Virus record (IMG/VR): IMGVR_UViG_3300025127_000028
Coordinates: 1-62,058 of that record
DNA: 62,058 bases
Reading direction: 5' to 3' (one strand)
Origin: a virus
Position 1 is the first letter of the stretch; each line of letters starts with the position of its first letter. A program made the position numbers and the translations under genes. The notes beneath the pieces were generated by a model. That model was not told the origin of the DNA and searched no databases. It saw nothing but the letters and a program-made list of their open reading frames with translations. Positions 5,268 through 42,311 of this stretch are shown here, piece by piece.

Positions 5268-5294
5268 CCCCTCGCTTCGGCGGGGGGATTCTTT
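5268..5294 (+). terminator. rho-independent terminator with UUCG loop at convergence point
   Basis: CCCCTCGC (5268-5275), loop TTCG (5276-5279), GCGGGGGG (5280-5287), followed by ATTCTTT. The cGCUUCGGCg cap is an exceptionally stable tetraloop. It separates the plus-strand arm ending at 5216 from the minus-strand arm ending at 5293. The stem could also act on minus-strand transcripts, although no U-run follows on that side. Confidence 0.85.
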
Positions 5295-8200
5295 AATCTG
5301 CGATGCCTAAATCCTGCCACAGCGTTATGGTGTCATCATACTCTGCTGCATCTTCCATAAGTTCATTTCGCATACGAGGATTGATTACGATGCCATGATG
5401 CATACGTGAAGTGGTGCGTTGGTGCGCTTTCATAGACTGCTTGAACGATTTATTTGTAATTGCTGTAGATGGGAACCTTTTGTTGTATTTAATTATTTCT
5501 TTCATAATAGCTTCCATTTCGGAAGTATCGCCTTGCCTTGCTGCTACATAATATCTTTTATATAGCTTGCTTTTTTGTTCGCCAGCGGCACGCTCTTTTC
5601 TTTTGATACGTGCATTCTCTTGTAATTGTTTGGTATATTCTGCGGGGGCAAAACCTAGCAACTGCCCGAATACATGCCCTGCTCCAATGTCTCCTACTAT
5701 GGGGTCGCCCCGTAACGTGTTAGCACCTTCTGTAGCAAACCTATAACTTTTTAAGACGTTACGTATAGCTGCTGGTGACATTGCTTCAATACCACGCTCT
5801 ACATTACCGTCTGCTATCATGCCTACACCACGCTCCATGTTTAGCGCGGTTCCCACCACAGGACCACCAACCATTTCAATGGCATCATAAAACAGACTTT
5901 GATCTTTTTGGACTAGGCGATCACGGAAGATAAGATCGGACAGACCCATACGACTTGCTACATCCACACCTAGTAAATAGTTACCAAGTCCACCATAGAA
6001 GCCCTCACCCAAAAACTTACGCATTGTAGTGTCAAAGTCATCTTCGTCTTCATCTCCGAATATAAGGTCTATGACGGAACCAATAGCCCCCATAAGTGGA
6101 ATACCTTGCGCTCCACCTATAATACCTGCCATGCCCACAGTCCCTGCTAACTGTTTACGAGCTACTAATTTATCTGCAGGAGAACCTTTGATTGCTTCCT
6201 TTGATAGTTTGGCAAGGTGATACGTCATGGATATACCAAAACGTTTAAACAAGAACATAACTTTACCAATACCCCTTTGCGCATATCTAGGTGCGCCAGT
6301 AGCGATGGCACCGCCGTTGGTAAGTTCTGTTACATAGATGGCTTTTTCTGCGGCTTCTGTTCTTGCGGCATCGTTTATAGTTTTGCCAGCTTTGCGCATT
6401 GCGCCTAATTCTAAATCATATGCAGTCATCAATGCTACTTGACGGTTCATACGCTCACCGTGGTGGAATATCCATCCAGATACAGCGCCTATCTTTCTCA
6501 TTGGACTATCTATTCTGTCCATGTCCAACATGTCATAAGTTATTGAACGGTTTAACTGCCCCATGCGCCCAGCTACTTCAGCTAGTACCTTATACTCCTT
6601 AACTTCTTTTGGTGTGTTGGGGTCGTCAAAATCATAATTGTCCAGTGATGGTGTAGCGGATGTAGTTTCTTTTATTTTACCATCAGGGCCAATCGTTTCT
6701 GAGGTGCGTTTAAAACCACTATTTTTAAACATGCGCATGGCTCTACCCGTGGCTTTCATAGTTTCAGAGTAACCATACTTACCGCCAAGGTAGGGCATAA
6801 CCACCATCGGTAGTTGTGAGAAGTTAACCACGGCAGAGGATATGTTTGCGCCAAGGGTCATAACAAACCCACCAGTTGTAAGTGCTTGCGCCCAGTTTTC
6901 TACGTTAGGGTTTTTAGCCCAGTCTGCACGTTGATCTAACTCATTAGCCAAAAGAACAGAAGTATCATCATTTTTTTCTACAGTCTTGACATGCTCTTTT
7001 ATTTCTTTCTGCACGGCAGATATTTTTTGTCCGTACTCCATTTGCACAAGCTGTCGTGATAGTGAGCTAGTTCTCTTGCGAAGCGCACCAATGGCATCTC
7101 GCTCAAACCCAAGCGTGCCTTTACGATTTCTAAATGACTGTGCAAATGACCGCTCTGGAAGAGAGTCAAGAAATAACCGCATTATCTGTTCTTTGACTTC
7201 GGCATCTACATTGTTTGTCTGTAATGTCTGAAGCACGTCGTTAACAAATGATGTAGGTGGCGCCTTATCGTAACTGACTTCTGATAGATTAGAGAACGAT
7301 TGAAAGTCTTTAGCCTCTGCATCAGGGTCTGCTTCCATAACCCTTTGCGCTTCTCTTCTATCTGTCTTACTTTCAAACGCTTCAACATAAAACTCCATGT
7401 TACCTGTGCGAGGGTCTCGCGCACTATAGGATAACCAGTACCCGCCACTACGAGTTAACGGGAAGTAAGGCTCAATAACACCGTTGTCGTAGAGAGCATT
7501 GTATACCTCTGCAAACACTTTTTTACGTGTAGGCTCATCAGAAATACCCTCGTCAATCTTGCTTTTAAGTATCCTACCCATCTCGTCATAGAGTTTTTTG
7601 TAGGTATTACGCATAGACTTGTAATGAGCTTGCCCTTCCTCACCAAGTGAGTTCCAATCGTCTTGCATGGCTTTCCATGCGTCTAACTTTTCTCCAGTGT
7701 AATCACTTTTGGGCTTTGAGGGATCAACCTGCTCTAATGTACTGTTGTAGATTACATTATTGAAAGCGTCTAATTTATCTTGATTCTTGCTGCCCCACGC
7801 AGACACTCGTTTGACCACTGGCTCAATCATACTGTTCATCTCAGTAACTTTGCCACTTGCCTCAAACGTCAGTTTTTCTAGTTTAGTTGCCATGGGTATG
7901 CGGGCTTTTGCAACATCGACTAAGGCATTGATTGGTAGCAACCCGAGCATAAAGTTCTTTGCCTTGTCAGGGAATCTATCTGCAAGAACTTCTTTTACAC
8001 GTTTTATGCCAGCAGCATCCCATGTGGGGGTATTCTTAACCATGTTATCAATGATTGCTTTAGCCTTATCTGGCACCATGGTTTGCATGTAAAGTCTGCC
8101 AGCACCACGAGATTCTGGCGCAGGTGCAAGCATGGCTTCAATTAGCTTATCTGCTTGGTTAAGTGCAGAGTCCACAGGCTTTGTCTGCATACCCATGGCA

Positions 8201-11200
8201 CGGCGTAAAACGTTAGCAACAGAATTAAAGAACCTTTGCAATGCGCTGATAGGTTCACCTTTTACGTTTATCTGCGCTAATTTTTGTTGGAACTCTGGGT
8301 TGCTGAATGTCTCCGCTACAAATTCATCTACGTTCTGTGACCCGTATGCAGTGTCTAATGAGTCTTTCACTTCATTAAATAATTTGGTGAGTTGTTTGGT
8401 CAACGGGTGTGACTTGTTAGCCAGTGTCTGTGATGTCGCAGCGTGTGTCATCTCATGCAGAATAGTATGTGGGTTGATACCAGTTTCTGCGTTGAGTGTT
8501 ATTGTGTTGGTCGCGGGGTCAAACATACCAGCCACAGGGTTACCAGATTCATCAGCAACGAACTGCCTTACTTGCACTTTTGTATCGCCAGCAACTTTAG
8601 CCAACGCCCCTGCAAGTTGTGATATACGCCCACTAGGAGATGTAGACTGTATCGCCCGGAGCGCTTCTACTAACTTACCTTGTCTTAACAAGTTACCAAT
8701 CACAGGATGTGTCGGTATGTCGAGACCTACTACAGCGTTCTCGCGTAAATAGTCAGGAAGCAAGTCTAAATCTTCTTGTGTAAACTCAAGAAACTCACTT
8801 TCAGCTTTAGCACGGCGTTCTTGTGCTATATCTTTTTTAATCAGTTTATCTCTTAGCTCTTGTTCTTTTGCTTTCTTACGCTCAGTCTCCACAAAATCTA
8901 CGCTACTATTCTGTCGTCTAATTGAATCTTCTAACGACTGTTGGTGCATTTCAACTAACTTATCTACAGCCGCGTTGGTTTCTGCACTTAAATTTTCTTT
9001 TACCCATTGCCTAGCACGAGTGGCTTCTTTTTTACCTGTATTTGCAAAATACTCCTTTTCGCCCTTACTCATATCCGGTGTGGATCTAAATACATCTTTC
9101 GCAAATACTGTTTCATGCGCTATAACTTCTAACGCATCGTTTGGGTTTTCTTGTTTACTAAAATAAGTTTTTGCGGCTCTAGCTTTTGTTACACTCGCCT
9201 TTTCCCCTGTCTGTTTATCTTTTACTTCAGTCTTTATTAACTCAAGTATTTTAGTGTCATCTGCTTCAGTAGTATTTACATCTAGTGATATAGATTCTGT
9301 GTCACCATCCTTATTTATAAATGTGGCCTTTGGCACTTCCTTAAACTTGCCAGTGTAAAATTTAACGTCCGCTGCTTCTGCTTCGGGAGAAGTCGGGTCT
9401 GCGGCTATTCTTTGTTTTCTTCGTATGTTGGACAGGCTTTTTATTTCTTCTGCAATTAATTTTTGTATTTCTTTTTTAGTTTTAGGTACTTTTTTAGGCA
9501 CAGCTTTCTTTATTGTCGGCTTTTTAGGTGCGGCTTTCTTTGCCTTTGGTTTTGGCTCTGGCTTTGCTTCTGGCTCTACCTGTGGCTGTACCTGTGGCTG
9601 TACCTGTGGCGCAGCTTTTGCCCTTACTGCTTCCTGTGGTCTCTCAATAGCTACCGCTGGTGCTTCAGCAATGGGTTCAACTGTAGGGATGGCAGTGGGT
9701 GTGACCGGCTCTAGTGGAGTTGCGCGGCCTGCTGTTCTTCTTGTAGGAGTTGCGGTTTCTACCTGTGGCGCAGTTTTTTCAGCTAATATATTAGGTAGAT
9801 TATCTTTTAAATTTTTAAAGTCTGGACTTTTCCCAATAACTTTGTTGTCGTTATTTGTGTCTACAGCTTCCCAATCTACACGCTTTCGCACCACTATGCT
9901 GGGTTGGTTTTCTACAACATATTCTGCGTTTTCTGGAGATATACCACCTCTCATATCTCCTGTTTTTGCTGCTTTGGTTTTTCTTAATTTAACAGGTTTC
10001 TCTGTATCTGGCGCAGCTTCTCTAGATGCGAATAAATCGAGCTGCTCATTTATCTTCTCCTTCGTCTCTGGAGATACTTGAGGGTTTGCCGCATGCTCTC
10101 TTAACTGCTGTTGTACTTCAGGCGTGGTAACATCTTTACCTTTAATGCGATTACGGAGAGGCGACGCAGGCTTGATAGCCAAACCATCCATGTCCTCTTC
10201 AGTTACGCTGCGAGTCTGGGCAGCAGTGAGCCTTTCAGGCACAAACGGTACTTCGGTGCGTGGTTTTCTCTCACCTTCTACTACTTGAAATTGTTTAGGT
10301 TTTGCTTCGGGTTCTTCCACTGGTGCAGGACGTTCCGCCCGTTGCACATCTATTGCGCGTTTGATAGTGTTAGTTTCTGACTCGTTAGGTTGTGTATTAG
10401 CGATACCTTGAGCTTCAAGCGCACGGGAAAAATTCTTAGTTAGTGTATCTTCTTGTTTTGTAGGAGTATTTTCAATTACGTCTTGTAATATTGCTGTGCG
10501 TCGTCGTTCTGTGGCTTGCTGTTGTTGTGTGTCTAACTGCCCTGCAATAGTTTCAACGTCGGAAGCCGCACGAGTTTCTTGTTCTTGCCTAAGTTCAGCT
10601 TCTGCTTTGGCATCTTCATCTAGCATAGCCTGTATTTGTGCAGTCTCATCAGCATCAACCATCTCTCGTAGCTGTGCGGACTCTGCTTCTTCAATCATAT
10701 CTGGTTGCACAGCTCTTGGCTGTGGAGTAGTGGGTACTCGTTGGTCAAAAAGATCTAGCTGTGTATCTTGCTCTGGCGCAGTTCCTAACTCGCTATCAGG
10801 GAACAACTCTCCTTGATCAGGTGCAACTACAGGAGCTGTGGGGGCCGTACCAAGGTCTTCACCTGCAAACAACTCACCTTGTGGATCAGGTTCAGCTTGA
10901 TCTGTTGGGGTAGGACTAACACCCCTACGTTTAGTAAGAGCATCAACAAACAGTTGTGTGATAGCTCCAGCACCTGCGCCATACCCTGCGTTTTCTGCTG
11001 TGCCTGCAAGAAGACTGACTTCTTCGTTATATCCAGACTCAACAAGATTCTGAAGTAAGTTTGCTGTAGCTTCTTGTGCGCCTTCAAGTCCACCTGTGGT
11101 AAGAGCATTACCTACACGCTCACTAATGGTCTCTACTTTATCCGGCCCAAGTTTTTCTAAAACCTTACCAACCACAGGTACATCAACAGCTTTGACAAAC

Positions 11201-11829
11201 CTAGTAATAGGTAAAATTTCAAGGATGCCAATAGGGGCAGCTTTTAGTGCGGCAGAAGATCGTTCTTCTTCAGTGGCTCCAGCAGCTCTAGCACGCTCAC
11301 TACCTTCACCAGCAGCGGCACTAACACCAAGCAACCCAGCAACACCTGTGGCAGCGGCAGTAGCGGCGGCGGCGGGCGCAGCATAGGCAGTAAGCGCAGC
11401 AGGCACAGCAATACCAGCAACAGACCCCAATGCCCTTGAAAGGTTATATGTTATAGAGTCTTCGTCTCCACCTTCAGGGCGTATAGCTTCTGCAGTGGCT
11501 TTAATTTTATCTCGTACTGTGTTTTCAGCTTCTTCATCAAGAAGTGCAGCAATACCAAGTGAGGCTGTTTCACCCACATCAATGGCACCAGCACCAAACC
11601 CTTTAGCAATATTTTCAAAAAACCCAGCGTCTTCTTCTTCTTTTTGATTATAGAGCGCATTTATTGAGGCAAGTTGTTTTTCTTCAAGATCTCTTTGGAG
11701 GGCAGCTGTTTCGTTTTCACGGAGTTTGTTTTGCACAATCGCCATGATAGCTTCAGGAGAAGCATCTGCGGGACCACGAACTCTATGCACGACTCCATCT
11801 GCATCTCTTACTTTATGTACAACACTCAT
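5293..11829 (-). CDS. giant virion/ejection polyprotein with zincin motif (2178 aa)
   Basis: The largest gene, the last of the late arm. The N-terminus has the phage motif 'VRGPADASPEAIMAIV' (DxxTPEEI-like), then Ala/Gly-rich helices to about 300, a Pro/Gln/Glu linker with QGELF and QLDLF motifs (317-361, 596-600), and a Lys/Pro/Ala-rich stretch at about 739-785. HEMTH at 1123-1127 with downstream DEFVAE (1166-1171) is a zinc-metallopeptidase signature. The C-terminal third (for example 'EPYFPLTRSGGYWLSY', then a hydrophobic GTVGMAGIIGG segment followed by acidic GDEDEDDFD) resembles phage large polyvalent/PLxRG proteins. Such proteins are packaged, ejected with the DNA and may process themselves or host targets. 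Exact activities are inferred. Confidence 0.75.
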   Translation of the reverse strand: MSVVHKVRDADGVVHRVRGPADASPEAIMAIVQNKLRENETAALQRDLEEKQLASINALYNQKEEEDAGFFENIAKGFGAGAIDVGETASLGIAALLDEEAENTVRDKIKATAEAIRPEGGDEDSITYNLSRALGSVAGIAVPAALTAYAAPAAAATAAATGVAGLLGVSAAAGEGSERARAAGATEEERSSAALKAAPIGILEILPITRFVKAVDVPVVGKVLEKLGPDKVETISERVGNALTTGGLEGAQEATANLLQNLVESGYNEEVSLLAGTAENAGYGAGAGAITQLFVDALTKRRGVSPTPTDQAEPDPQGELFAGEDLGTAPTAPVVAPDQGELFPDSELGTAPEQDTQLDLFDQRVPTTPQPRAVQPDMIEEAESAQLREMVDADETAQIQAMLDEDAKAEAELRQEQETRAASDVETIAGQLDTQQQQATERRRTAILQDVIENTPTKQEDTLTKNFSRALEAQGIANTQPNESETNTIKRAIDVQRAERPAPVEEPEAKPKQFQVVEGERKPRTEVPFVPERLTAAQTRSVTEEDMDGLAIKPASPLRNRIKGKDVTTPEVQQQLREHAANPQVSPETKEKINEQLDLFASREAAPDTEKPVKLRKTKAAKTGDMRGGISPENAEYVVENQPSIVVRKRVDWEAVDTNNDNKVIGKSPDFKNLKDNLPNILAEKTAPQVETATPTRRTAGRATPLEPVTPTAIPTVEPIAEAPAVAIERPQEAVRAKAAPQVQPQVQPQVEPEAKPEPKPKAKKAAPKKPTIKKAVPKKVPKTKKEIQKLIAEEIKSLSNIRRKQRIAADPTSPEAEAADVKFYTGKFKEVPKATFINKDGDTESISLDVNTTEADDTKILELIKTEVKDKQTGEKASVTKARAAKTYFSKQENPNDALEVIAHETVFAKDVFRSTPDMSKGEKEYFANTGKKEATRARQWVKENLSAETNAAVDKLVEMHQQSLEDSIRRQNSSVDFVETERKKAKEQELRDKLIKKDIAQERRAKAESEFLEFTQEDLDLLPDYLRENAVVGLDIPTHPVIGNLLRQGKLVEALRAIQSTSPSGRISQLAGALAKVAGDTKVQVRQFVADESGNPVAGMFDPATNTITLNAETGINPHTILHEMTHAATSQTLANKSHPLTKQLTKLFNEVKDSLDTAYGSQNVDEFVAETFSNPEFQQKLAQINVKGEPISALQRFFNSVANVLRRAMGMQTKPVDSALNQADKLIEAMLAPAPESRGAGRLYMQTMVPDKAKAIIDNMVKNTPTWDAAGIKRVKEVLADRFPDKAKNFMLGLLPINALVDVAKARIPMATKLEKLTFEASGKVTEMNSMIEPVVKRVSAWGSKNQDKLDAFNNVIYNSTLEQVDPSKPKSDYTGEKLDAWKAMQDDWNSLGEEGQAHYKSMRNTYKKLYDEMGRILKSKIDEGISDEPTRKKVFAEVYNALYDNGVIEPYFPLTRSGGYWLSYSARDPRTGNMEFYVEAFESKTDRREAQRVMEADPDAEAKDFQSFSNLSEVSYDKAPPTSFVNDVLQTLQTNNVDAEVKEQIMRLFLDSLPERSFAQSFRNRKGTLGFERDAIGALRKRTSSLSRQLVQMEYGQKISAVQKEIKEHVKTVEKNDDTSVLLANELDQRADWAKNPNVENWAQALTTGGFVMTLGANISSAVVNFSQLPMVVMPYLGGKYGYSETMKATGRAMRMFKNSGFKRTSETIGPDGKIKETTSATPSLDNYDFDDPNTPKEVKEYKVLAEVAGRMGQLNRSITYDMLDMDRIDSPMRKIGAVSGWIFHHGERMNRQVALMTAYDLELGAMRKAGKTINDAARTEAAEKAIYVTELTNGGAIATGAPRYAQRGIGKVMFLFKRFGISMTYHLAKLSKEAIKGSPADKLVARKQLAGTVGMAGIIGGAQGIPLMGAIGSVIDLIFGDEDEDDFDTTMRKFLGEGFYGGLGNYLLGVDVASRMGLSDLIFRDRLVQKDQSLFYDAIEMVGGPVVGTALNMERGVGMIADGNVERGIEAMSPAAIRNVLKSYRFATEGANTLRGDPIVGDIGAGHVFGQLLGFAPAEYTKQLQENARIKRKERAAGEQKSKLYKRYYVAARQGDTSEMEAIMKEIIKYNKRFPSTAITNKSFKQSMKAHQRTTSRMHHGIVINPRMRNELMEDAAEYDDTITLWQDLGIAD

Positions 11830-14611: not shown

Positions 14612-15661
14612 CTATGCCGGTAGGAATTCTTCAGGGTCGATCTCCTTACCCTGTTTGGTACTACCTGTGCGTGCTTTACGTACTCTATCCATCATATCTT
14701 CCAATACTTTAGCACCTGCGTCCGAGTTGCCATTGCCAAGATGACTTACTACGTCTGCTGGTATTACAAACTCACCATCACTAAGTGCTGCTGGCTGCTC
14801 ACCGTCTATCATGGCAGGCTTCTCATCAGCCATACCATCAGTGGCGCCGTCTAGATATTTACCTTCTTTAAGTCCAGCAATACCACCTTCAGCAAATCCT
14901 ATATAACTTAAAGCCTTGCCACCAGCCTCTTTAAGTCTATCTATCTGTTCGCCTATGTCGCCAGTTATATTGCCTAGATCAAACCCTGAACCTTTACCTT
15001 CATTAACATACCCCAAAAACACATTACCTTGAAACATACCCATTTTACCGTTTGGCATTCTACGTGTTTTTATAGGTTTATTAGATTTAAAAGCCGCTTG
15101 TTGTATAGATGTATTCTCTGGAACATTTATTTTACGTCCAGCAGCGTATCCAACGATACCTCCAGAGGCTATTTGTTGTGTGGGTTGAGTAGCTTGAGCA
15201 GCTTGGGCAGCTTTTGCGGCGGCAGCGGCAGCGGCGGCATCTTCAGCGGCACGAATTGGAGCTAGTTGTTGTCCTTGCCTATTTTGTGCAGCTAGGTTTG
15301 CTCTATTCAAAGCTGCTAGTCCAGCAGCCTCTGCTGTAGGATCACCTCCGCTAAAACTAACATCGGTAAAGTATCTCTGCCCACCACTGCCCGGACGGCG
15401 ATCTGGGTCATATGTGTTGGGGACTTGCATACGAGTGGCTGTGTATGTAGGGATTTTACCTTGATACCCACTTGGCCCTCTACCTCCACCACCTCCACCA
15501 AAAAGATCGTATCCAAATATATCAGCAACTTGACCTGCGGCTCCAAGCGCTGCCGATCCTGCGCCGATCATCTTACCATAGTCGTAATCATACCCTACGA
15601 CATCTCCACTTTCATATTCTGGAGTTCTAAAAGGATCTAGAATACTATCAAAAATACTCAT
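14612..15661 (-). CDS. tail/internal virion protein with GGIVGY and DGEFVIPADVV motifs (349 aa)
   Basis: A 349-residue protein. It contains an Ala/Gln-rich coiled segment (about 130-165), SGGIVGYAAG and FAEGGIAGL glycine motifs, and a conserved C-terminal block with SDGEFVIPADVVSHLGNG followed by AGAKVLEDMMDRVRKAR. The C-terminal block recurs in tail proteins of marine phages and may be an interaction or cleavage module. The stop is 11 bases before the next gene and the start is at the stop of the 1615-residue protein, giving tight operon packing. Confidence 0.65.
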   Translation of the reverse strand: MSIFDSILDPFRTPEYESGDVVGYDYDYGKMIGAGSAALGAAGQVADIFGYDLFGGGGGGRGPSGYQGKIPTYTATRMQVPNTYDPDRRPGSGGQRYFTDVSFSGGDPTAEAAGLAALNRANLAAQNRQGQQLAPIRAAEDAAAAAAAAKAAQAAQATQPTQQIASGGIVGYAAGRKINVPENTSIQQAAFKSNKPIKTRRMPNGKMGMFQGNVFLGYVNEGKGSGFDLGNITGDIGEQIDRLKEAGGKALSYIGFAEGGIAGLKEGKYLDGATDGMADEKPAMIDGEQPAALSDGEFVIPADVVSHLGNGNSDAGAKVLEDMMDRVRKARTGSTKQGKEIDPEEFLPA

Positions 15662-18600
15662 TATTTGCCCCCAATGAGCCGTAATAGCTCTTCATTAGCA
15701 TCAACGACTCCACCCTGTGCATACGGAGACCTGTAGAATGCGTCCTGCCCAGAGTCTCTAAAAATACTTGCAAAGTCATAAGGATCGCCAATTTCAGCCA
15801 CAGGTTGCGATTTTACCTGCGTTATCCTACCTGCATCTTCCGCTATCATACTCTGCAAATCCCTAACATTACGTTTTTTAGCTTCATCTTCTACTTGTTG
15901 GGCTATTTGCATTTGCGCATCTATTTGTTGTTGTGTTTGAGCATCTAACTGCGCTTGCATTTGCGTTTGAGCATCCATTTGTGCCTGTGTTTGCGCATCT
16001 ATTTGTGCAAATATCCCTGTAGCAGGTTGAAAATTTGAATCTTGCGCAAAGGCAACGTCTTGGCCTTGTAGTGCATTATTTAACAGGTTCTGATCGTTTA
16101 TGTCAACAATACCATCGCCTGTAACGTCATATCCTAACTGTTCATCTGTAAATTTAAATGTACTAGGGTCGGTGAGAGCTTCTTGTTGTGCTATAAGGTC
16201 GGCAACAAAGTCTATATCTACGTCAGTAACCTCGGTTGCAGGTTTGCCAATAATCTCTGCTATAGACTGAATATTAACATCAAGTCCTGCAACATCAGTA
16301 GCAATATCTCCAACCTGATCACCAAGTGTATCAACACCCCCTAGTTTTTCGCTAAGTTGTCCAACATCATATCTTAACGCGTTATACTGCGCTGCGGGCA
16401 ATGCCTCTTTGAGTCGTGCATCTAGTTCTTCTTGGTTATATTGCCCAACCAGTGCGTCCACATCTTCTGGTCTTACATCAGGCAAACCAGCTTTTTTATA
16501 GGCTTCTTGAACTTCTGTGGCGTCCACCATAAAGGGATCAGCCGTTTCTATAACTTCTTTTAATGTATCTGTTTGCAACCCCTGTCTAACAAACTGATCA
16601 ACAAAATTATCTGGTAGTTTACTAACATCAAATCCTTCGCCTTCCAGTTCTGCTATTACTTCTTTTTCAGTAGTCAGTCTATCTTCAGCATAAGTTGTTA
16701 TAGCCTGTTGTTGTTCAGTTTCGTTTACCTGCGCTACAAAAGTATTAATTTCATCTTCTGTTGGGTTGTACCCAAGGTCATCAAGATACTGTTTGGCTTC
16801 TTCGTAGGTTGTAGCCTGCTCATCGAACACACCAGTCTGCAGATTCTGTGTTTCTTGCGCTTCATCTTTTTGTCCTACATAATCTGCGGCCTGTTGTTCT
16901 GTAAGTGTCACACCCTCTGCAGCGGCTGCATCAATTATTTCTTGAGAATCCAGATATCTAGGGTCTACAAAATTATCTACTAAGGCTGCTAAATCTGCAT
17001 CAGCGTTGGCACCGGTAAAGCCAGTAAGCTCGTCTTTTGTAAACTGATACGGTATGTTATTTTCTGTAACATAAGTTGCCGCTGCCTGTTCGGCCTCACC
17101 CGTGCTGGTATAATCTGTGTCAAATACTTGGTTTAAGATGTTTGACTGTACGGTGTTGTCGGATACGCCAAGATCGTTAAGCTGTTGTGTAACACCTGCT
17201 GCGTCTAACCCACCCTCATTCTGTACGACCTTACGCACTTCAGGATTAAACATAATCATTGCATTTGATACTACGTCACCTGTTGCGGCGCCTCCATATA
17301 TAGAACCTGCAACCGTACCGCCAGACAGTGCGCCAAGCACGGAGTTACTAACCACGTTGCCTACAACATCTCGTGTAGGATCTAACTGATACAGCTGTGA
17401 CTCTAGATAAGCTTGCGGCAGTCCTTCTTCTACAGCCTCTTGAGCGGTTTCTTTTGCTACGACATCAAAGGCTTCCGAGAAATTTTTACCACGTTTGCCG
17501 TTAAATATTGCCTTTTCAAAATCGTTGCCGCCTACACCCATAGTAGCAACAGTAGTAACTGCAGCGATTGTACCTGCAGTTATGGCCTTATCTAGTGCAT
17601 ATTCTTGTGCTTCTGCATCGGACATACCTGATTTAAGTGCTGTAGCATAAGCGTCATCATACGCACCGCCAGCCGTGCCACCAAAAGACTCTGATACATC
17701 CAGTACCCCCGCAGTTCCAATAGCGGCACGCTGACTCATCTTTTGTGCAAACTCTTCTCCAGCTTGCTTTAGCCCTGCTTTAACTACGTTAGCTGTACCA
17801 CCACTGGCTATTAGCACAGGAATTTCCTGTAGAAGTTCTTTTGCTATATACTCGGATGCAAAAGTGCCGGGATTAGCCATGGCTGCGCCACCGATAGCTT
17901 TAATTGTATTCCACGCTTTAGCAAACGTGGAGAGCGGCGTGCCGTCTGGGTTGGTAAGTAATTTACCATCTTTATCAAAATTAGCCTTACCGATAGTTTC
18001 TTGAATTTCCGCAGCGGCAGCTTTGTATTCTTCTGTTTTCATATCGCCAGCCATAGCGATAAGATTTTTTGCAGTTTTGCCTAGTGGAGTAGACTCTGGA
18101 TTAATGCCTGCAAGAAGCACCAGATTATTCATGCTATCAAGCAGCTCCCCGCCAGCATCAAGAACTACACCTGCAGTGTTTTTACCAAAATCGCTGCTAG
18201 CAATACTCTGTGCTGTTTCGGTGTTGGCTATGTAGGTAGCTACGTTCTTGGCAAACTCGTATTGCTGCATTAGGCCAGTTACACCTGCCTCTACTGCTTT
18301 ATCTACTGCGTCAGAACTAACGTTTGCAAGTGTATCTAAATATGAACCGGCGTTTGTTTCTTTTAAGGTTTGTAGTGGGGCATATATTGTTAATTCCGAC
18401 ATAGGTTTTCCATCTGAACCTATATTCAAATAGTTACCTTGCATATCTACTGTAGCTTCTCCCAGACCATCTGGATGAGCTACTTTTCTAACTAATGTGC
18501 CGTGTTTACTATCCCACTTAGGTATATTAAATTTAAGAGATACGTCCTCCCAATTCAGTAACCCTTCAGCATTAGTTGATACTCCTGCTTTACCAGTAAG

Positions 18601-20508
18601 AATGTCAAAATCGCTTACGTTATCGGGTTTGGTAATTGCCTGCACTTCATCTTTTTGTCCTTTTAGTGCAGCATTTGTAATTTTAATTTTTTCATCATTT
18701 GGTAGTTCATCATAACTAGATACTTCATACGCATCTAAAAGGTTTTGGAGTTGTTCTGGTGGCGTCACTTTAGGATTTTCAACTAAACTTTTACCAATGC
18801 TGTCTCTAAAAGTAGTGGCAATAGCGGCAGAACCATTTTCAATATCTTTTAACGACTGCAAGTTGCCTTCGCCATAAGCTAATGTTTGTTCTCGTAGAGA
18901 TTTAATTTGTGCAGGTGAAAGGTCTGTAATACTTAGCCCCAACACCTCAAGAGTGCCGTTCATAGAAGAGGCTAGTGCATTATCTAAAACTTGTTCGTAT
19001 TGAACAGCATTAACGGGCAAGTCGTTGTCCTTGCCTTCAGTAAGCCAGTGAAAACGCGCTTCATCGTCATCTAAATCACTTAAACCATTGACTTGTTTGT
19101 ACTCTTCAACATTAAACGAATCGTCAGTCATTGCTCGCACGTAGGCTTTCTGCGTAGCATTATCGACTTCGATCATTACATCGTCTAATTGGTCGGAACT
19201 AGATACAAGCTCATTCTTAAGATCTTGATATACTGCAGAATCAGCTTCAATGGCTGCAAATTGATCATCAATACTTTCTTTTAATGGGTCAGCAGCAGGT
19301 TTGAATACATCATTGTAGTATGTATCTACCTCTTTAGCGTAATCGTTAAACTGTTGCACCTTTGCGTTATATGAATCTACTAACCCGCTGTACGCGCTAC
19401 TATTTGGATCTGTGGCTTGTAAAGTTGCTCTAGCAGCATCTATTTCTGCTTTTAACTCATCTCGTGTATTTATTCTGTTTTGTAGCTCTCCAACATACCC
19501 ATTGTATGTTTGCACATCTTTACGGTACGCTTCATTTGCGGCATCAATCTTATTGGCTTGCGCTTCGGCCTTTTGATAATCACCAGTGACTTTATCAATA
19601 GTATTTTTTACGGTTTTATCAATAACCTTGTTAAGTTCTTGCGTCCCGTAGGCATTTATAGTTGCATATAAAGCATCAGATGCATCAGCTCCAGAGAATG
19701 TCGCATTGGCTACGTTTTGTACTGACGATGTAATTAAAGCAATCTGCCCATCTGTTAATGAGTCATCAGCATCTACAAAGCCTTTTACTGTTTCCGTAGT
19801 AACTTTACCTTTGATTACCGCATTCATAATAGTGGCACCAGTTACATCTTGCCCACTAAGAGCTGCGGTTAAAGTGTCTTCTACTATGTTTTTAACCACA
19901 GGATTTTGATCTAAGAAACTTTGTGTTTGCCCTACAGGTCCGGGGTCTCCAACGCCGCCGGGATCTCCTACTGCAGCTACAGTACTTCCACTTTTACCCC
20001 CAGATATTTGTTCATCAATATAACCAAGCCCTGCCTGCACACCCGCCTGCACACCACCCGTAACAAAGGCTTTGACAGGATCTTCTCCTCTTACTACCGC
20101 AGAAGCAGCACTTCCTGTTCCAGCACCAATAATTGACGCTGCGGTTGCACTGGCTCCCGCTGATGACGCGGCTTGCGCACCATATTTAGCTCCATACCCC
20201 GCTGCCTGCCCAGCCACATATGCTTTAGCGGAAGCCTCAAGAATGTCACCAAGATCTCCTCCTTGTATTGCTGTGTCTGCGCCCGACACCAAGGGTAACG
20301 CCCACCACTGACCAGACAGGGCGGCGGCAGTGTACGCAATAGCTCGTAGGGGGTCATCTAAAACAGCATCTACAACATCATTGACAGTATCAACAACTGG
20401 AACAACTATCTCGTCAAGAACCCAGTCACCTACATCACTGACAGTATCGCCAACCCACTTAACCGCTTTCTTAACGGCTTTTTTAGCTTTTTTCCACGGC
20501 TTACCCAT
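15661..20508 (-). CDS. large internal virion protein with dockerin-like calcium motif (1615 aa)
   Basis: A 1615-residue structural protein. The N-terminus is strongly basic and amphipathic (MGKPWKKAKKAVKKAVKWVG), then acidic and hydrophobic, as if made to meet a membrane. Ala/Gly-rich and coiled-coil regions follow. Residues of roughly 1150-1420 hold degenerate repeats of about 40-50 residues with a 'LGYNPTEDEINTFVAQ' pattern. D1461-V-T-G-D1465-G-I-V-D-I-N-D1472 fits a dockerin/EF-type calcium loop. A Gln/Ala repeat (QAQLDAQTQQQIDAQ) follows, and the C-terminus has AQGGVVDANEELLRLIGGK. It is likely an ejected or tail-core protein rather than a siphovirus tape measure. Functions are inferred from size, position and pattern. 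Confidence 0.68.
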   Translation of the reverse strand: MGKPWKKAKKAVKKAVKWVGDTVSDVGDWVLDEIVVPVVDTVNDVVDAVLDDPLRAIAYTAAALSGQWWALPLVSGADTAIQGGDLGDILEASAKAYVAGQAAGYGAKYGAQAASSAGASATAASIIGAGTGSAASAVVRGEDPVKAFVTGGVQAGVQAGLGYIDEQISGGKSGSTVAAVGDPGGVGDPGPVGQTQSFLDQNPVVKNIVEDTLTAALSGQDVTGATIMNAVIKGKVTTETVKGFVDADDSLTDGQIALITSSVQNVANATFSGADASDALYATINAYGTQELNKVIDKTVKNTIDKVTGDYQKAEAQANKIDAANEAYRKDVQTYNGYVGELQNRINTRDELKAEIDAARATLQATDPNSSAYSGLVDSYNAKVQQFNDYAKEVDTYYNDVFKPAADPLKESIDDQFAAIEADSAVYQDLKNELVSSSDQLDDVMIEVDNATQKAYVRAMTDDSFNVEEYKQVNGLSDLDDDEARFHWLTEGKDNDLPVNAVQYEQVLDNALASSMNGTLEVLGLSITDLSPAQIKSLREQTLAYGEGNLQSLKDIENGSAAIATTFRDSIGKSLVENPKVTPPEQLQNLLDAYEVSSYDELPNDEKIKITNAALKGQKDEVQAITKPDNVSDFDILTGKAGVSTNAEGLLNWEDVSLKFNIPKWDSKHGTLVRKVAHPDGLGEATVDMQGNYLNIGSDGKPMSELTIYAPLQTLKETNAGSYLDTLANVSSDAVDKAVEAGVTGLMQQYEFAKNVATYIANTETAQSIASSDFGKNTAGVVLDAGGELLDSMNNLVLLAGINPESTPLGKTAKNLIAMAGDMKTEEYKAAAAEIQETIGKANFDKDGKLLTNPDGTPLSTFAKAWNTIKAIGGAAMANPGTFASEYIAKELLQEIPVLIASGGTANVVKAGLKQAGEEFAQKMSQRAAIGTAGVLDVSESFGGTAGGAYDDAYATALKSGMSDAEAQEYALDKAITAGTIAAVTTVATMGVGGNDFEKAIFNGKRGKNFSEAFDVVAKETAQEAVEEGLPQAYLESQLYQLDPTRDVVGNVVSNSVLGALSGGTVAGSIYGGAATGDVVSNAMIMFNPEVRKVVQNEGGLDAAGVTQQLNDLGVSDNTVQSNILNQVFDTDYTSTGEAEQAAATYVTENNIPYQFTKDELTGFTGANADADLAALVDNFVDPRYLDSQEIIDAAAAEGVTLTEQQAADYVGQKDEAQETQNLQTGVFDEQATTYEEAKQYLDDLGYNPTEDEINTFVAQVNETEQQQAITTYAEDRLTTEKEVIAELEGEGFDVSKLPDNFVDQFVRQGLQTDTLKEVIETADPFMVDATEVQEAYKKAGLPDVRPEDVDALVGQYNQEELDARLKEALPAAQYNALRYDVGQLSEKLGGVDTLGDQVGDIATDVAGLDVNIQSIAEIIGKPATEVTDVDIDFVADLIAQQEALTDPSTFKFTDEQLGYDVTGDGIVDINDQNLLNNALQGQDVAFAQDSNFQPATGIFAQIDAQTQAQMDAQTQMQAQLDAQTQQQIDAQMQIAQQVEDEAKKRNVRDLQSMIAEDAGRITQVKSQPVAEIGDPYDFASIFRDSGQDAFYRSPYAQGGVVDANEELLRLIGGK

Positions 20509-20512
20509 AATG

Positions 20513-20974
20513 TTACCTTATAAGCTCTTCGCCAAGTTTTACATAAATTATGTACTCATCATCTTCTGTTACACCAATATACAATGCTGAATCTTCTGTT
20601 TTACGCAAACGTTTTTGCAGTATTTTCATAGCAGGTAATAACGTGTCATCTGCAAGGTCAGTGCTGTAATGTGTTACATTTTTTTCTTGTAGGTATTGTA
20701 GGTACTTAACAGAGTTATCAATAAAATTACGTCCAGTATCTATGTTAAATGCCCGACCTGCCATTTTATTCTTATTGTCTCCTTTCCCGCTATGAGCTAA
20801 AAACACTGTATTACCAATTTGTACAGTATCCGCGTTTTCCATAGCGCCCTCTGCTACAACAGATAACATTTGTGCCTGTATAGGTGGGTCATCCTCATCC
20901 TGTAATTGCTCTAGACTACGAATAATTATTTGAGGAATATCAAGTTCTTGTTGTTTACTATCTACTGTTTCCAT
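20513..20974 (-). CDS. conserved phage protein, unknown (153 aa)
   Basis: A 153-residue acidic protein. The central block has GNTVFLAHSGKG, then GRAFNIDTGRNFIDNSVKYL and NVTHYSTDLADDTLL, and the C-terminus has a beta-rich YIGVTEDDEYIIYVKLGEE. The pattern resembles small core or acetyltransferase-like virion proteins of T7-related marine phages, but no acetyl-CoA site can be pointed to. It follows the acyl carrier protein gene by 7 bases, so a functional link is possible. Confidence 0.55.
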   Translation of the reverse strand: METVDSKQQELDIPQIIIRSLEQLQDEDDPPIQAQMLSVVAEGAMENADTVQIGNTVFLAHSGKGDNKNKMAGRAFNIDTGRNFIDNSVKYLQYLQEKNVTHYSTDLADDTLLPAMKILQKRLRKTEDSALYIGVTEDDEYIIYVKLGEELIR

Positions 20975-20981
20975 ACTGCCC

Positions 20982-21260
20982 TCATGCTACTGCTGCTAAG
21001 ACGGCTTCTTCAGATTCAACATCTTTAGTTTTGTGCTTATTAATGTATGTTTGTAAGTCAGTTAAACTAGTCATTGGCATACCATCAATTTTTTCTTCTG
21101 ATATACCAAATACATCTGCAAGCAATGAACTAATAAGCATACAATCTAGACTATCTATATTTAACTCCTCCATTGTATCGTTAAGAGAAGTAGCCAATGC
21201 CTCTGGTTCTTTATATTTTGCCTCTGTTAACGTTATATTAAATATTTTTACAAAATCCAT
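20982..21260 (-). CDS. acyl carrier protein-like (92 aa)
   Basis: A 92-residue protein of the size and pattern of an acyl carrier protein. LNIDSLDCMLISSLLADVFG carries the DSL phosphopantetheine site, with Ser37 as the predicted attachment residue. It is followed by 'GISEEKIDGMPMTSLTDLQTYI', matching ACP helices II-IV. Carrier proteins hold acyl chains as thioesters for fatty-acid synthesis or acyl transfer. No synthase or phosphopantetheinyl transferase gene is seen nearby, so host enzymes would be required. GGAGG lies upstream of the ATG. It sits among tail genes and overlaps the stop of the upstream gene by one base. Late expression with virion genes suggests lipid or tail modification, or remodelling of host lipid metabolism; this is inference. 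Confidence 0.75.
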   Translation of the reverse strand: MDFVKIFNITLTEAKYKEPEALATSLNDTMEELNIDSLDCMLISSLLADVFGISEEKIDGMPMTSLTDLQTYINKHKTKDVESEEAVLAAVA

Positions 21261-21583
21261 TAACTAACCTCCAACAAACTTGCTACAACATGTAATCTGT
21301 TTGCAGTAGCTGCAGTAACTTTTATTATTTCACCAGTTTCTACTACAAGAGGAGCTGTCAATAGTTCTACTGTATTGTTTGCACTAACAGCTTTAGTTTT
21401 AAATATACTAAACACAGCATCGGAAGTGTTAGTGATTGTAATTGTTATAGTATCTGCATTGCCAGAATCTTCAGACACGAGTATGGATTTTATAATACCT
21501 GTAGTAAGTGCCGGTGCGGTGTATAACGTAGTCGCATTAGTTGTAGTAAGATCCACTTTTGCATTTTTATATACGTTTGCCAT
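21260..21583 (-). CDS. small beta-rich structural protein (107 aa)
   Basis: A beta-strand-rich protein (TTNATTLYTAPALTTGIIKS, then alternating hydrophobic strands) of the type found as small fibre, spike or decoration proteins. The ATG at 21583 (MANVYKNAK) was preferred to an upstream in-frame start because it overlaps the stop of the preceding gene as TAATG. The role is not proven; its position beside the nozzle gene suggests the tail. Confidence 0.6.
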   Translation of the reverse strand: MANVYKNAKVDLTTTNATTLYTAPALTTGIIKSILVSEDSGNADTITITITNTSDAVFSIFKTKAVSANNTVELLTAPLVVETGEIIKVTAATANRLHVVASLLEVS

Positions 21584-21786
21584 TACCCTATAAACCACCC
21601 TACAGCGTCTGATTGATCAGATGTATTTGCATTCCTTATAGCTGTATCTAACTGACTAAAATATAAACGAAGAACGTTATTAAATTGTTCAAATTGTTGT
21701 CTATCATACTCTTCTGGTGCATACGGTAACGCTGGAGCGCGAAACGGAATATCATATCTTGTTGAATCAACTCCACGAGTAGGCAT
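21583..21786 (-). CDS. small conserved tail-region protein (67 aa)
   Basis: A 67-residue protein, MPTRGVDSTRYDIPFRAP then PEEYDRQQFEQFNNVLRLYFSQLD, with an extended N-terminus and one long amphipathic helix. Overlaps on both sides couple it to the nozzle protein and the small beta-rich protein. Such short proteins are common next to nozzle genes in marine podoviruses and may plug or stabilise the tail. No domain is recognised. Confidence 0.55.
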   Translation of the reverse strand: MPTRGVDSTRYDIPFRAPALPYAPEEYDRQQFEQFNNVLRLYFSQLDTAIRNANTSDQSDAVGWFIG

Positions 21787-23642
21787 TAGCGCCTCCCATC
21801 AGGACGCATGTCCAGTCTTGGTGCGCCAAGCTGCCAAGTAACGCCCTCTGCAGAGGATTCTATCCGCATAGATAATTGTCTACCTCGCACTCTTACATTT
21901 ATTTGATCTGTAAATACCTCGACAGGAGAAGAAGCAGTGCGAGTAACTGTAGCGTTGTTTACCCCACCTACAGAAGGAGTAGAATGTATACCAGACCCAG
22001 AATTACGTAATGGTTTCAATGTCATGGTAACGACTGGACTAGTTGCTGTAGAACCATCAAAACTTACATCAGGTATTACTCTGTTTACGTGCATAAATTT
22101 GTGGCCGTCATCAAGATCAAATTCGGAAGATTCTATATATGCAGATATAGCAGCAGTGCTTGTGCCTTGATTGTCATCTATACCGCTCTCATGGTCCACC
22201 AAGTTGTTGTCGTAAGTTGCTGCTAACGGGCTATCACGTAGTCCAGAATCAAGCCAAGCAGTTCTAGCCAGAGTTCCATAATACCATATATCCTCTAAAT
22301 AATTGTATATTACGTATTTATCTATATTTGTTGCGCTCGTTGAACAATAGAACCACCAAGCTTCATGGAATGATTCATTTGTCCCTGCAAAAACTTGTGA
22401 ATATTGTTCTGTGTTAAAATCATTAAATACATACTTACGAACATCACATTTTAATGGTGCAGTTCGCCCATCATATTTATAAAATTTATCTTTACCCATC
22501 CAATAAGCAACACCATTAGCATAAGCCACAGCATTTTGAGATGATATGGATATATTTTCTCCAACAATAGATGCAGTCCACACGGCAGGGGCGCCTACAT
22601 ACTGTAATGAGTATAAAGAAGAGTCGGTCCATACAAGAACTTCCTGTCTAGACTGAGAAGCCGCTACTATTTTTGTACCTCTTGATAAACGTAAGCTACC
22701 AGCTTGGTTTGTGGCTGACGGTGTCCAATTTGTAGCATCTTCTTGATCAGACCACCTAAGTAATGTTGGATCTAATCCGCTGCTACCTATTTCGTTTGTA
22801 CCAAAACAAAATACAAATCTGCTTATATCAGACACTAATATTAAATTTTGCACCGTTGGAACGTCAGAAGCACCGCTACGACTGGACAATAAAACTGCGC
22901 GTGTCTCTACGCCATTTGTAGCATCCCAGTAATACACGCCACCACCTCTATGCCCGAGTATTAAATCCTCACCAAAGTTTGATTGTGACCAGAAACGTAT
23001 TTCTGTTGTAGATGACACACCAACACCCCAAGCACCTTGCCCCCACGATCCAGCACCCCAACCAGTTATAGGGATTGCAAAAGCATTACCTACATTTATC
23101 TGGTAAGCTGCAGATACTGAAGAACCTCCTCCAGTAGCACTAGAAGTAGCATTAGATGAAGCAGTTATGGTGTAAGTATTTGCAGCAGAAATAGCTGTTA
23201 AGCTAACAACAAACTCTCCATTTAAATCCAAGCCACCCACAGTAGATACGTTACTAAACGTAACATAGTCACCATTTTTATATCCACCGTTAGCATCTGT
23301 TACAGTCACAGTGGCAGAACCAGAAGTTGTAGTGAATGGGTTACTTAAAGTTACGGTGCTGCGTAAAGGTGTTACATCGTTATAGACCCCCACATTTTCT
23401 ATATAAAATTTAAGATGCGTGCCTATACCTATTAAATTTTGTTCTCCTAGAGTAACCCAGTTGTGTAGGGATCTAGCTACTCCAAGAAACGTAGCCGTTG
23501 ATATTTGTTGCCACCCACCTATTTTTTCTGGTAAACCCTGCCTAAATCTTATTTTGTCACCATCATAATAGCCACCCTCAGTAGAATAACGAGTTCCTTC
23601 ACGGTTTATACCAGCTTTTAAAGCTATTTTTTGCAGTGGCAT
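21786..23642 (-). CDS. tail nozzle / DNA stabilisation protein (P22 gp10 / T7 gp12-like, 618 aa)
   Basis: A 618-residue protein that starts MPLQKIALKAGINREGTRY and continues with Trp- and Gly-rich beta repeats (ITGWGAGSWGQGAWG) and several short 'W-x-D' blades. This fits the beta-propeller nozzle that closes the podovirus tail and retains DNA (P22 gp10, T7 gp12 type). Acidic loops are plentiful. The stop overlaps the next start. It lies just downstream of the lysozyme gene. The family is inferred from recalled marine podovirus homologues and beta-propeller character. Confidence 0.68.
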   Translation of the reverse strand: MPLQKIALKAGINREGTRYSTEGGYYDGDKIRFRQGLPEKIGGWQQISTATFLGVARSLHNWVTLGEQNLIGIGTHLKFYIENVGVYNDVTPLRSTVTLSNPFTTTSGSATVTVTDANGGYKNGDYVTFSNVSTVGGLDLNGEFVVSLTAISAANTYTITASSNATSSATGGGSSVSAAYQINVGNAFAIPITGWGAGSWGQGAWGVGVSSTTEIRFWSQSNFGEDLILGHRGGGVYYWDATNGVETRAVLLSSRSGASDVPTVQNLILVSDISRFVFCFGTNEIGSSGLDPTLLRWSDQEDATNWTPSATNQAGSLRLSRGTKIVAASQSRQEVLVWTDSSLYSLQYVGAPAVWTASIVGENISISSQNAVAYANGVAYWMGKDKFYKYDGRTAPLKCDVRKYVFNDFNTEQYSQVFAGTNESFHEAWWFYCSTSATNIDKYVIYNYLEDIWYYGTLARTAWLDSGLRDSPLAATYDNNLVDHESGIDDNQGTSTAAISAYIESSEFDLDDGHKFMHVNRVIPDVSFDGSTATSPVVTMTLKPLRNSGSGIHSTPSVGGVNNATVTRTASSPVEVFTDQINVRVRGRQLSMRIESSAEGVTWQLGAPRLDMRPDGRR

Positions 23643-33281: not shown

Positions 33282-33926
33282 TTAAGCTACCGGCGTACGA
33301 GCTTGCCCAGAACGGTAGTAATCTTGTCGTAATTTACCATCTCCAGTGCGTTGTAGTAATCCAATAGCTTGTAAGTATCGTTTTTCATACATAGCAACCA
33401 TATCAGGCTCACCTTTCATAAACCGAATAGCTTCCATAAGTGTGCCGTTAAGAAGTGCAGTATCAAAGTTATCTCCTAAATATGTACCGCCAGCTGTCAC
33501 TATGGATGTAGGATACTTAGCGTATATATGTTCAATCTCATAATTTTGATCTGGGGTTGGAGCTAACATTAGCTTTACGATAGATCCTCCAGTGCTATGG
33601 TATGCGTAGAACTTAGGTAGTCCATACTTTGCGCTGGTGTTTACAGGGTAAGCGTCACGTAGGAAATTAACGTCTTTATTTAACAAATAGTGGGTAGTGC
33701 TACTACTAATCACAGCTAGGCTGTAGGTATATAAATACCCGTCTGGAGTAGTATACAACTTGTTAGTGGCAGTTAAAGGCCCGCTATCTACATTACGCAT
33801 GGCTGGTAGTTCAACAGAGTTAAATATTAACTGTTCTGCCTGCTGTGCAAATAACTCGTGTTGACCCGACGTAAACGTCTGTTCACAGATATCCTCAACA
33901 TTTGCCTTTAAATTAGTGTAGTTCAT
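33282..33926 (-). CDS. phage adaptor / head-tail connector protein (214 aa)
   Basis: A 214-residue protein. 'MNYTNLKANVEDICEQTFTS', QQAEQLIFNSVELPAMRN, YLLNKDVNFLRDAYP and the C-terminal FMKGEPDMVAMYEKRY with GKLRQDYYRSGQ form a pattern recalled from phage adaptor proteins of marine podoviruses. Such proteins sit below the portal and join the tail. Its position downstream of other connector genes agrees. It is separated from its neighbours by 3-9 bases. Confidence 0.75.
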   Translation of the reverse strand: MNYTNLKANVEDICEQTFTSGQHELFAQQAEQLIFNSVELPAMRNVDSGPLTATNKLYTTPDGYLYTYSLAVISSSTTHYLLNKDVNFLRDAYPVNTSAKYGLPKFYAYHSTGGSIVKLMLAPTPDQNYEIEHIYAKYPTSIVTAGGTYLGDNFDTALLNGTLMEAIRFMKGEPDMVAMYEKRYLQAIGLLQRTGDGKLRQDYYRSGQARTPVA

Positions 33927-34489: not shown

Positions 34490-35170
34490 TTAAATCCTAG
34501 CAATCCTTGGCACATATCGTTCAGAAGTTTTTTCTCTATCTTCACCTGCAGCTAAATTGTACTGCTCATCATACGCGACCTTTAGCATTTGAGTTCTATC
34601 TGCAAGTTCTGGCACTTTCATAGAGATGTGATATGCCAGCCCTGCTACCAGACACGGTAGGAAACGATATACAACATCTGCTGTCTCTACTCCGTTACCA
34701 GCGTCTTCTATTCTTCTCATTCTAAAATACACAAACGTATAACTAGTGTCGGGAACGGGCCATAGATTTATTCTAGGTGTAGCTAACCGCTCTACAAATA
34801 CCTGTATTGGCCTGCCAGATGTTAACTTGTTAGGGATGGATGCGTAAGTGCTAACACCAATACGACTTATAGTAAGATCAGATTGAGTTGCGGAATTACC
34901 TGCGTTAGTACGGATTACATGGTCAAGAAGGTCTACAGTATCCGCAGGTAGACTATATTGCGCTGTGCCTTCAGTAATAGAGATCGTACCGCTATCAATA
35001 GTCCACATGTTGATGCCACGATTCTGCCACTCGATAGTCATCAAATTCATGGATCTACGGGCAGTACGAAGGTCGTAGCCTGACCGCATCTCACGTCCAG
35101 CACGCTCCCACGCTTCTTCAGCGATTTCAGTGAAATCCATATCAAATGCGGTAGTGCCTGACGTAGCCAT
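34490..35170 (-). CDS. head-tail connector / tail tubular A-like protein (226 aa)
   Basis: A 226-residue protein. The N-terminal helices (FTEIAEEAWERAGREMRSGY, RTARRSMNLMTIEWQNRG) and the beta block INMWTIDSGTISITEGTAQY resemble P22 gp4 / T7 gp11-type adaptors that extend the portal. The C-terminus is helical (FLPCLVAGLAYHISMKVPE, LKVAYDEQYNLA) and ends basic. It precedes the other adaptor gene, as in many podoviruses. Confidence is from recalled pattern and position. Confidence 0.75.
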   Translation of the reverse strand: MATSGTTAFDMDFTEIAEEAWERAGREMRSGYDLRTARRSMNLMTIEWQNRGINMWTIDSGTISITEGTAQYSLPADTVDLLDHVIRTNAGNSATQSDLTISRIGVSTYASIPNKLTSGRPIQVFVERLATPRINLWPVPDTSYTFVYFRMRRIEDAGNGVETADVVYRFLPCLVAGLAYHISMKVPELADRTQMLKVAYDEQYNLAAGEDREKTSERYVPRIARI

Positions 35171-41927: not shown

Positions 41928-42311
41928 CTATACTTTGCAAATTCCACGAGGGTCAGGAATAACTGCCTCAACAGAATCGTCATTCATTAAACGGAACTCT
42001 TTGCCGTTTACCTTAAAACGAGTGCCGGTGTTCATACGAAACATTACATAGTCACCAACTTTACACCATGCGCCTGTGGGGAATCTATCTTTATCGGCAT
42101 AGGCAGCTTCGCCCATATCAATAACCACACCCATAATCGACATGATATATTCTTTGCGTTTCTCATCATCAGTTTTAAGTAAACTACTACCTTCATAAGT
42201 ATCACTTACGTCGGGCAATGCTACCAACAAACGATACCCACAAGGTTTAGGTAATTGTGCGTCCCAATCTTCATCAGGAGTGATTTTTTCAATTGCTTCA
42301 GCCATCGTCAT
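41928..42311 (-). CDS. GroES-like co-chaperonin (127 aa)
   Basis: A 127-residue protein with the GroES/Cpn10 core: P-x-GYRLLVALPDV, a mobile-loop-like acidic stretch (DTYEGSSLLKTDDEKRKE), MGVVIDMGEAAYADKDRFPT, WCKVGDYVMFRMNTGTRFKV and VNGKEFRLMNDDSVEAVI. Cpn10 caps GroEL rings; phage versions (as T4 gp31) adapt host GroEL to fold the capsid protein. Its place between portal and scaffold genes supports this. ATG at 42311 or 42305 could start it. The frame overlaps the upstream gene by 14 bases. Confidence 0.82.
   Translation of the reverse strand: MTMAEAIEKITPDEDWDAQLPKPCGYRLLVALPDVSDTYEGSSLLKTDDEKRKEYIMSIMGVVIDMGEAAYADKDRFPTGAWCKVGDYVMFRMNTGTRFKVNGKEFRLMNDDSVEAVIPDPRGICKV

Follow-up and report, generated by a model that had tools for sequence, protein, structure and literature searches.

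An acyl carrier protein gene among the virion genes of a podovirus-like phage, paired with a ketosynthase gene in most relatives

Among the virion genes of the virus record IMGVR_UViG_3300025127_000028, which was analyzed over its entire length of 62,058 bases (the window), a small open reading frame encodes a product resembling an acyl carrier protein (ACP), which raises the question of what a phage would do with an acyl carrier while its particles are being built. A sequence-only reading of this DNA had proposed three functions, namely the diversion of host fatty-acid flux, the supply of acyl groups to a virion protein, and binding to the partners of host ACP. The open reading frame is real and lies on the minus strand, which that reading had not given, and the product carries Ser37 in the motif IDSLD, as described there. 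The gene has an ATG start downstream of a GGAGG site, and the stop of the 112-residue gene upstream overlaps its start (Table 1). The virion genes of the window include a terminase (phrog_38), a portal (phrog_1216), a capsid protein and very large proteins that are ejection-type by position; judged by this gene content, the operon is a podovirus-like phage setting. The gene context supports the late virion-operon setting claimed for the ACP, and the earlier placement inside the tail gene cluster is correct as to the operon and better worded as a position between the tail hub/stabilization protein and the ejection-type proteins.

Table 1. Features surrounding the ACP gene of the window
Feature	Position	Strand	Evidence or remark
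Acyl carrier protein (ACP), 92 aa	20982..21260	(-)	ORF, profiles, alignment, AlphaFold
Ser37 codon (AGT)	21150..21152	(-)	Ser in all 44 aligned family members
p153, 153-aa GNAT-fold protein	20513..20974	(-)	Structure prediction; after ACP or ACP-KS
7-bp ACP-p153 gap, site of the ~370-aa ketosynthase (KS) gene in relatives	20975..20981	(-)	
112-aa small protein upstream of ACP	21260..21598	(-)	Weak Ig-like match; phrog_1276
67-aa small protein	21583..21786	(-)	
Tail hub / 'phage stabilisation protein'	21786..23642	(-)	phrog_3287
1615-aa large protein	15661..20508	(-)	Ejection-type by position

Other features of the record were also noted. Its two ends (positions 1-182 and 61877-62058) form a direct repeat of nearly identical sequence, about 182 bases long, such as a complete phage contig, whether circular or terminally redundant, would be expected to have. 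A 2178-residue protein (5293-11829, minus strand) containing the Large polyvalent protein associated domain LPD39 (E 9.8e-13) is encoded at the far end of the virion operon. Two SU10-type adaptor proteins are encoded on the minus strand at 33282-33926 and 34490-35170 (E 1e-13 and 1e-12), possibly representing a duplicated head-tail adaptor. A 127-residue protein resembling GroES-type co-chaperonins (41928-42311, minus strand) lies between the portal and the scaffold-position genes, and a 'chaperonin 10 kd subunit' occupies the same slot in the GenBank record MW202545.1.

Alignment, profile searches and structure prediction indicate that the 92-residue product is a genuine ACP, as had been proposed. 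The family, collected by iteration through neighbors and profiles, comprises 165 matches in the fetched loci, and the relatives in a non-redundant set (n = 44) share 24-72% identity with the window ACP; the homologues of loci L003 and L004, at 72% identity, have the same location and keep the motif DSLD. The only invariant positions in the alignment of the 44 members are F7, D36, S37 and D39, and DSLA replaces DSLD in one of the 165 family motifs. Serine codons of both the AGN and the TCN class are present at the Ser37 site across the family. This serine opens helix II and is the predicted phosphopantetheine site.

A profile built from 12 members matches ACPs in the PDB at E 3.4e-5, and all of the matches listed are ACPs or the corresponding mitochondrial/complex I proteins. 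The profile of all 44 members gives E. coli AcpP 26.4 bits, as compared with at most 9.6 bits for 2000 shuffles, and matches only the ACP gene when run on the window. Single sequences score lower: the window protein alone reaches E 0.042 and 14.5 bits against Pfam PP-binding (PF00550; cut-off 20.8) and E 1.6e-4, under the curated cut-off, against the NCBIfam ACP model, and the L003 protein reaches 19.0 bits against PF00550. The L128 protein passes that cut-off with 21.4 bits, and a PP-binding match is found in 14 of the 44 family members.

The structure of the window ACP was predicted with AlphaFold, with one row from an annotated record left out of the input alignment. The model (pLDDT 85) contains helices at residues 3-13, 37-51, 55-60 and 66-76, which is a four-helix ACP fold with the serine at the N-terminus of helix II. 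The comparison with ACP folds that had been suggested as a check thus reveals the ACP helix order together with an additional C-terminal helix (84-91), a segment conserved throughout the family. A Foldseek search with the model returned almost only ACPs among the matches listed, with probabilities up to 0.99 and E-values of 0.055 or higher, a modest level that is to be expected of so small a fold.

A major difference from AcpP is found in helix II. The residue five positions after the serine, corresponding to Glu41 of AcpP, is hydrophobic (L, M, F, V or I) in 46/46 ACP members, and the charge of helix II is -2.1 on average in the family and -2 in the window, as compared with -5 in AcpP, so that an acidic helix II of the AcpP type, including Glu41, is not found in the phage ACP family. 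The missing Glu41 and the less acidic helix suggest that these proteins are specialized for a phage partner and not for the enzymes of host fatty-acid synthesis, and this specialization favors a dedicated late-step acyl carrier over a diversion of host lipid flux. The weakly acidic helix could also be poorly recognized by host AcpS, which is a point against the explanation preferred below. The phage records tested yielded no phosphopantetheinyl transferase, FabD-type acyltransferase or SDR reductase family, and activation and loading of the ACP would consequently depend on the host. Families of 2OG oxygenases were also absent from the phage records searched.

At least 151 relatives of p153 are present in IMG/VR, and many of them are preceded by an ACP-like gene and then a gene for a protein of approximately 370 residues, which is a FabF-like ketosynthase (KS). 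The late cassette therefore has the order ACP, KS and GNAT-fold p153, directly upstream of the large ejection-type proteins, and wherever the sequence of a relative with the ACP extends far enough, p153 comes after ACP or ACP-KS. Among 208 sequences, consisting of 207 fetched loci (the best 80 loci per scan) and the window, ACP-KS-p153 is present in 135, ACP-KS with p153 not found in 12, ACP-p153 in 13 and p153 alone in 38, counts that include overlapping copies of a single contig and are not unbiased. None of the 208 sequences contains a KS without an ACP. Both genes occur in 147 of the fetched loci, which represent 103 distinct pairs, and the ACP stop and the KS start overlap by four bases in 129 of the 147. 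The earlier statement that no synthase is nearby is true of the window and misleading for the group, since a ketosynthase nearly always follows the ACP in relatives.

The KS matches Ketoacyl-synt_C (1.6e-16) and ketoacyl-synt (1.5e-10) in Pfam, and its best solved match in a PDB profile search is FabF 4ddo (E 1.4e-25). Residues C132, H270, K298, H303 and E312 are invariant in 35/35 KS sequences, with a spacing that matches C163, H303, K335, H340 and E349 of FabF; the Cys-His-His-Lys active site of the relatives' KS is, as judged from these residues, intact. The cassette is also carried by MW202545.1, which is from a spring metagenome. A scan of 84,980 genomes yielded one close match to the KS, with 52% identity, on a 37.6-kb contig of a Balneolaceae MAG (L208), which indicates that the phage KS is nearly confined to phages; this match is possibly a hint to the host or possibly a binning error.

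No PF00109 match is present in the window, and no PF02801 match in the KS-less relatives L001, L003, L004, L098 and L099. The ACP is retained without the KS in the window, in L098-L100 and in L058/L120. The latter two loci contain an open micro-ORF of 28 codons between ACP and p153 (L058, 2198-2284; L120, 5303-5389), the product of which matches KS residues 247-266 with 75-79% identity across 19-20 residues, and this is a direct trace of a KS deletion in which the ACP was kept. In the tree of p153, ACP and KS are present together in both deep clades, and ACP-only rows appear in three separate places, formed by the window with L003 and L004, by L099 and by L058. The clade of the window is nested together with lineages lacking both genes (group of four: bootstrap 97, SH-aLRT 86), as observed in the sister lineage L015 and its neighbors. 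The KS was lost at least two times, probably three, with the ACP kept. Most likely, the ancestral form of the window ACP was one half of an ACP-KS pair, and the KS was lost and the ACP kept in this lineage; re-acquisition of the ACP in the window clade is a possible alternative. The dN/dS values are approximately 0.09-0.11 for the window ACP against L003/L004 and 0.145 for the L058/L120 pair. The window ACP is under strong purifying selection, and the low values in the KS-less clades indicate that the ACP is still functional without a phage KS.

The gene next to the ACP had been described as that of a small unknown protein; it does adjoin the ACP, and its product, p153, is confidently predicted to have a GNAT (N-acyl/acetyltransferase) fold. 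The AlphaFold model (pLDDT 96) matches many GNAT structures with probability 1.00 and E-values of about 1e-3, and the matches among viral predicted structures are uncharacterized phage proteins, an 'Internal virion protein A' and a DUF2824 protein. The acyl-CoA loop R/Q-x-x-G-x-G/A is missing after strand 4, where p153 reads N-x-D-T-x-x-N. Residues S6, G54, N55, T56 and D79 are invariant, also where the ACP is missing, and the occurrence of p153 with these same residues in the 38 loci without ACP or KS indicates that it need not have an ACP. Precedents for GNATs that use acyl-ACP exist in LuxI-type synthases, N-acyl amino acid synthases and HlyC-type acyltransferases, and we infer by analogy that the ACP and p153 may be coupled.

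The reading that we tentatively prefer, with a probability of roughly 0.45, is that the gene encodes a dedicated phage ACP, ancestrally one half of an ACP-KS pair, that acts as an acyl donor or partner in virion assembly. A host 4'-phosphopantetheinyl transferase of the AcpS/Sfp type would convert Ser37 to the holo form and host fatty-acid enzymes would load an acyl chain, which the phage KS of the relatives would extend by a carbon unit. The acyl-ACP would then serve as an acyl donor, or as an acyl-bearing assembly partner, for a neighboring protein during virion assembly. The most plausible recipients may be p153 and the large ejection proteins whose genes come next; proteins that must enter host membranes might, for instance, be acylated in this way. 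Of the three functions proposed earlier, the supply of acyl groups to a phage or virion protein appears to fit best. A general diversion of host fatty-acid flux appears to be a poorer fit, as the recognition helix has no glutamate at the position of AcpP residue 41. Points against the preferred reading, besides the weakly acidic helix II, are the loci in which p153 is present with neither ACP nor KS, the missing acyl-CoA loop of p153, and the score of the single window protein below the Pfam cut-off.

The foremost rival is an auxiliary metabolic module, in which the ACP, joined by the KS in relatives, would change fatty-acid synthesis in the host late in infection without a specific virion target, with effects on chain length, unsaturation, membrane supply or the timing of lysis. 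That the KS has retained the complete catalytic set of FabF is consistent with such a module, as are the metabolic annotations of other phage ACP genes (PMC5463345, PMC10152775, PMC3037559). However, the cassette always lies in one virion slot adjoining p153, helix II of the ACP lacks the glutamate that docks host fatty-acid enzymes, and the ACP persists after loss of the KS, which leave this explanation with a rather low probability. A narrower form of the acyl-donor proposal, in which ACP and KS constitute a minimal acyl-building module and a phage-specific acyl or beta-ketoacyl group is put on the ejection proteins, possibly via p153, to let them work in host membranes, is of low probability.

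A structural role, in which acyl-ACP binds and stabilizes a phage assembly protein with no acyl transfer, would resemble the LYR-bound ACP of mitochondria and the MukB-bound AcpP. The retention of the ACP in the KS-less window, L098-L100 and L058/L120, the conservation of the C-terminal extra segment across the family, and the existence of bound forms of this kind among solved ACPs argue for such a role; nevertheless, it appears unlikely, as it would by itself leave the catalytically intact KS of most relatives unexplained and no LYR-type partner was identified. The gene could also be the decaying remnant of an ACP-KS cassette with no present function in the window phage, as the loss of the KS and the lack of both genes in L015 and its neighbors might suggest, but a dN/dS of about 0.1 and an intact DSLD in the KS-less clade make this very improbable. 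Finally, an ACP-resembling tail assembly chaperone of the Phage_TAC_7 kind (PF10109), to which the window protein has a sub-threshold Pfam match (E 0.005), was rejected as extremely improbable, since the match scores 17.3 bits against a cut-off of 25 and occurs in 1/44 members as compared with 14 for PP-binding, the ACP fold and the invariant serine oppose it, and the podovirus-like virion genes give no reason to expect a long-tail chaperone.

Until now, phage ACPs have been recorded one at a time and regarded as metabolic accessories; the ACP described here has a fixed virion slot, is accompanied by a phage ketosynthase in most relatives, and persists where that synthase has been deleted. These observations suggest that the phages of a little-known group manage acyl groups of their own during virion construction. 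Whether some short-tailed phages attach acyl groups to virion or ejection proteins, or rely on acyl-ACP as a factor in assembly, is now a testable question, and an acyl module for ejection proteins, if true, would represent a previously undescribed system of virion lipidation. The PHROGs families matched by the KS (phrog_35856) and, weakly, by the ACP (phrog_28189) are both listed with unknown function, and the cassette thus gives names to dark phage proteins.

In comparison with AcpP (PF00550, TIGR00517), the phage ACP shares the D-S-L serine that opens helix II, the order of helices I-IV, an acidic protein and profile matches, and differs in the absence of Glu41, the additional conserved C-terminal segment, the sub-threshold scores of single sequences and the location in a phage virion operon. 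The KS of the relatives resembles FabF/KAS II (TIGR03150, PF00109/PF02801) in its Cys-His-Lys-His-Glu set, with TIGR03150 matched at E 2e-31, whereas it has approximately 370 residues with a shortened N-terminal part and its score is 109 bits against the FabF equivalog cut-off of 494. The slot of p153 between the tail hub and the ejection genes is that of the T7 gp13 / P22 gp14 class; in contrast to these proteins, p153 has no recognizable acetyl-CoA loop and is preceded by ACP and KS in many relatives.

Two cyanophages carry an ACP (T4-GC457) plus an ACP synthase (ACPS, T4-GC500) (PMC3037559), and ACP genes with a metabolic annotation are reported as ORF32 of Erythrobacter phage R6L (PMC5463345) and ORF117 of Vibrio phage R16F (PMC10152775). 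As far as the accessible parts of these reports go, the known phage ACPs are isolated metabolic annotations, and none is said to form an ACP-KS-GNAT cassette within the virion operon of a podovirus. Predicted Rhodobacteraceae prophages are reported to contain fabG-acpP-fabF, in the normal bacterial gene order (PMC8224337). The weak tblastn ACP matches in Proteus phage 10 and Ruegeria phage V10 are not ACP loci by context, and no ACP of the window kind was found in the podoviruses DSL-LC04, HTVC023P, MinM2 and CRP-901, which share the tail hub. The open-licence papers searched contain no description of an ACP-KS-GNAT cassette fixed among podovirus virion genes. The ACP and KS families are already known, and it is the virion setting and the pairing that are new.
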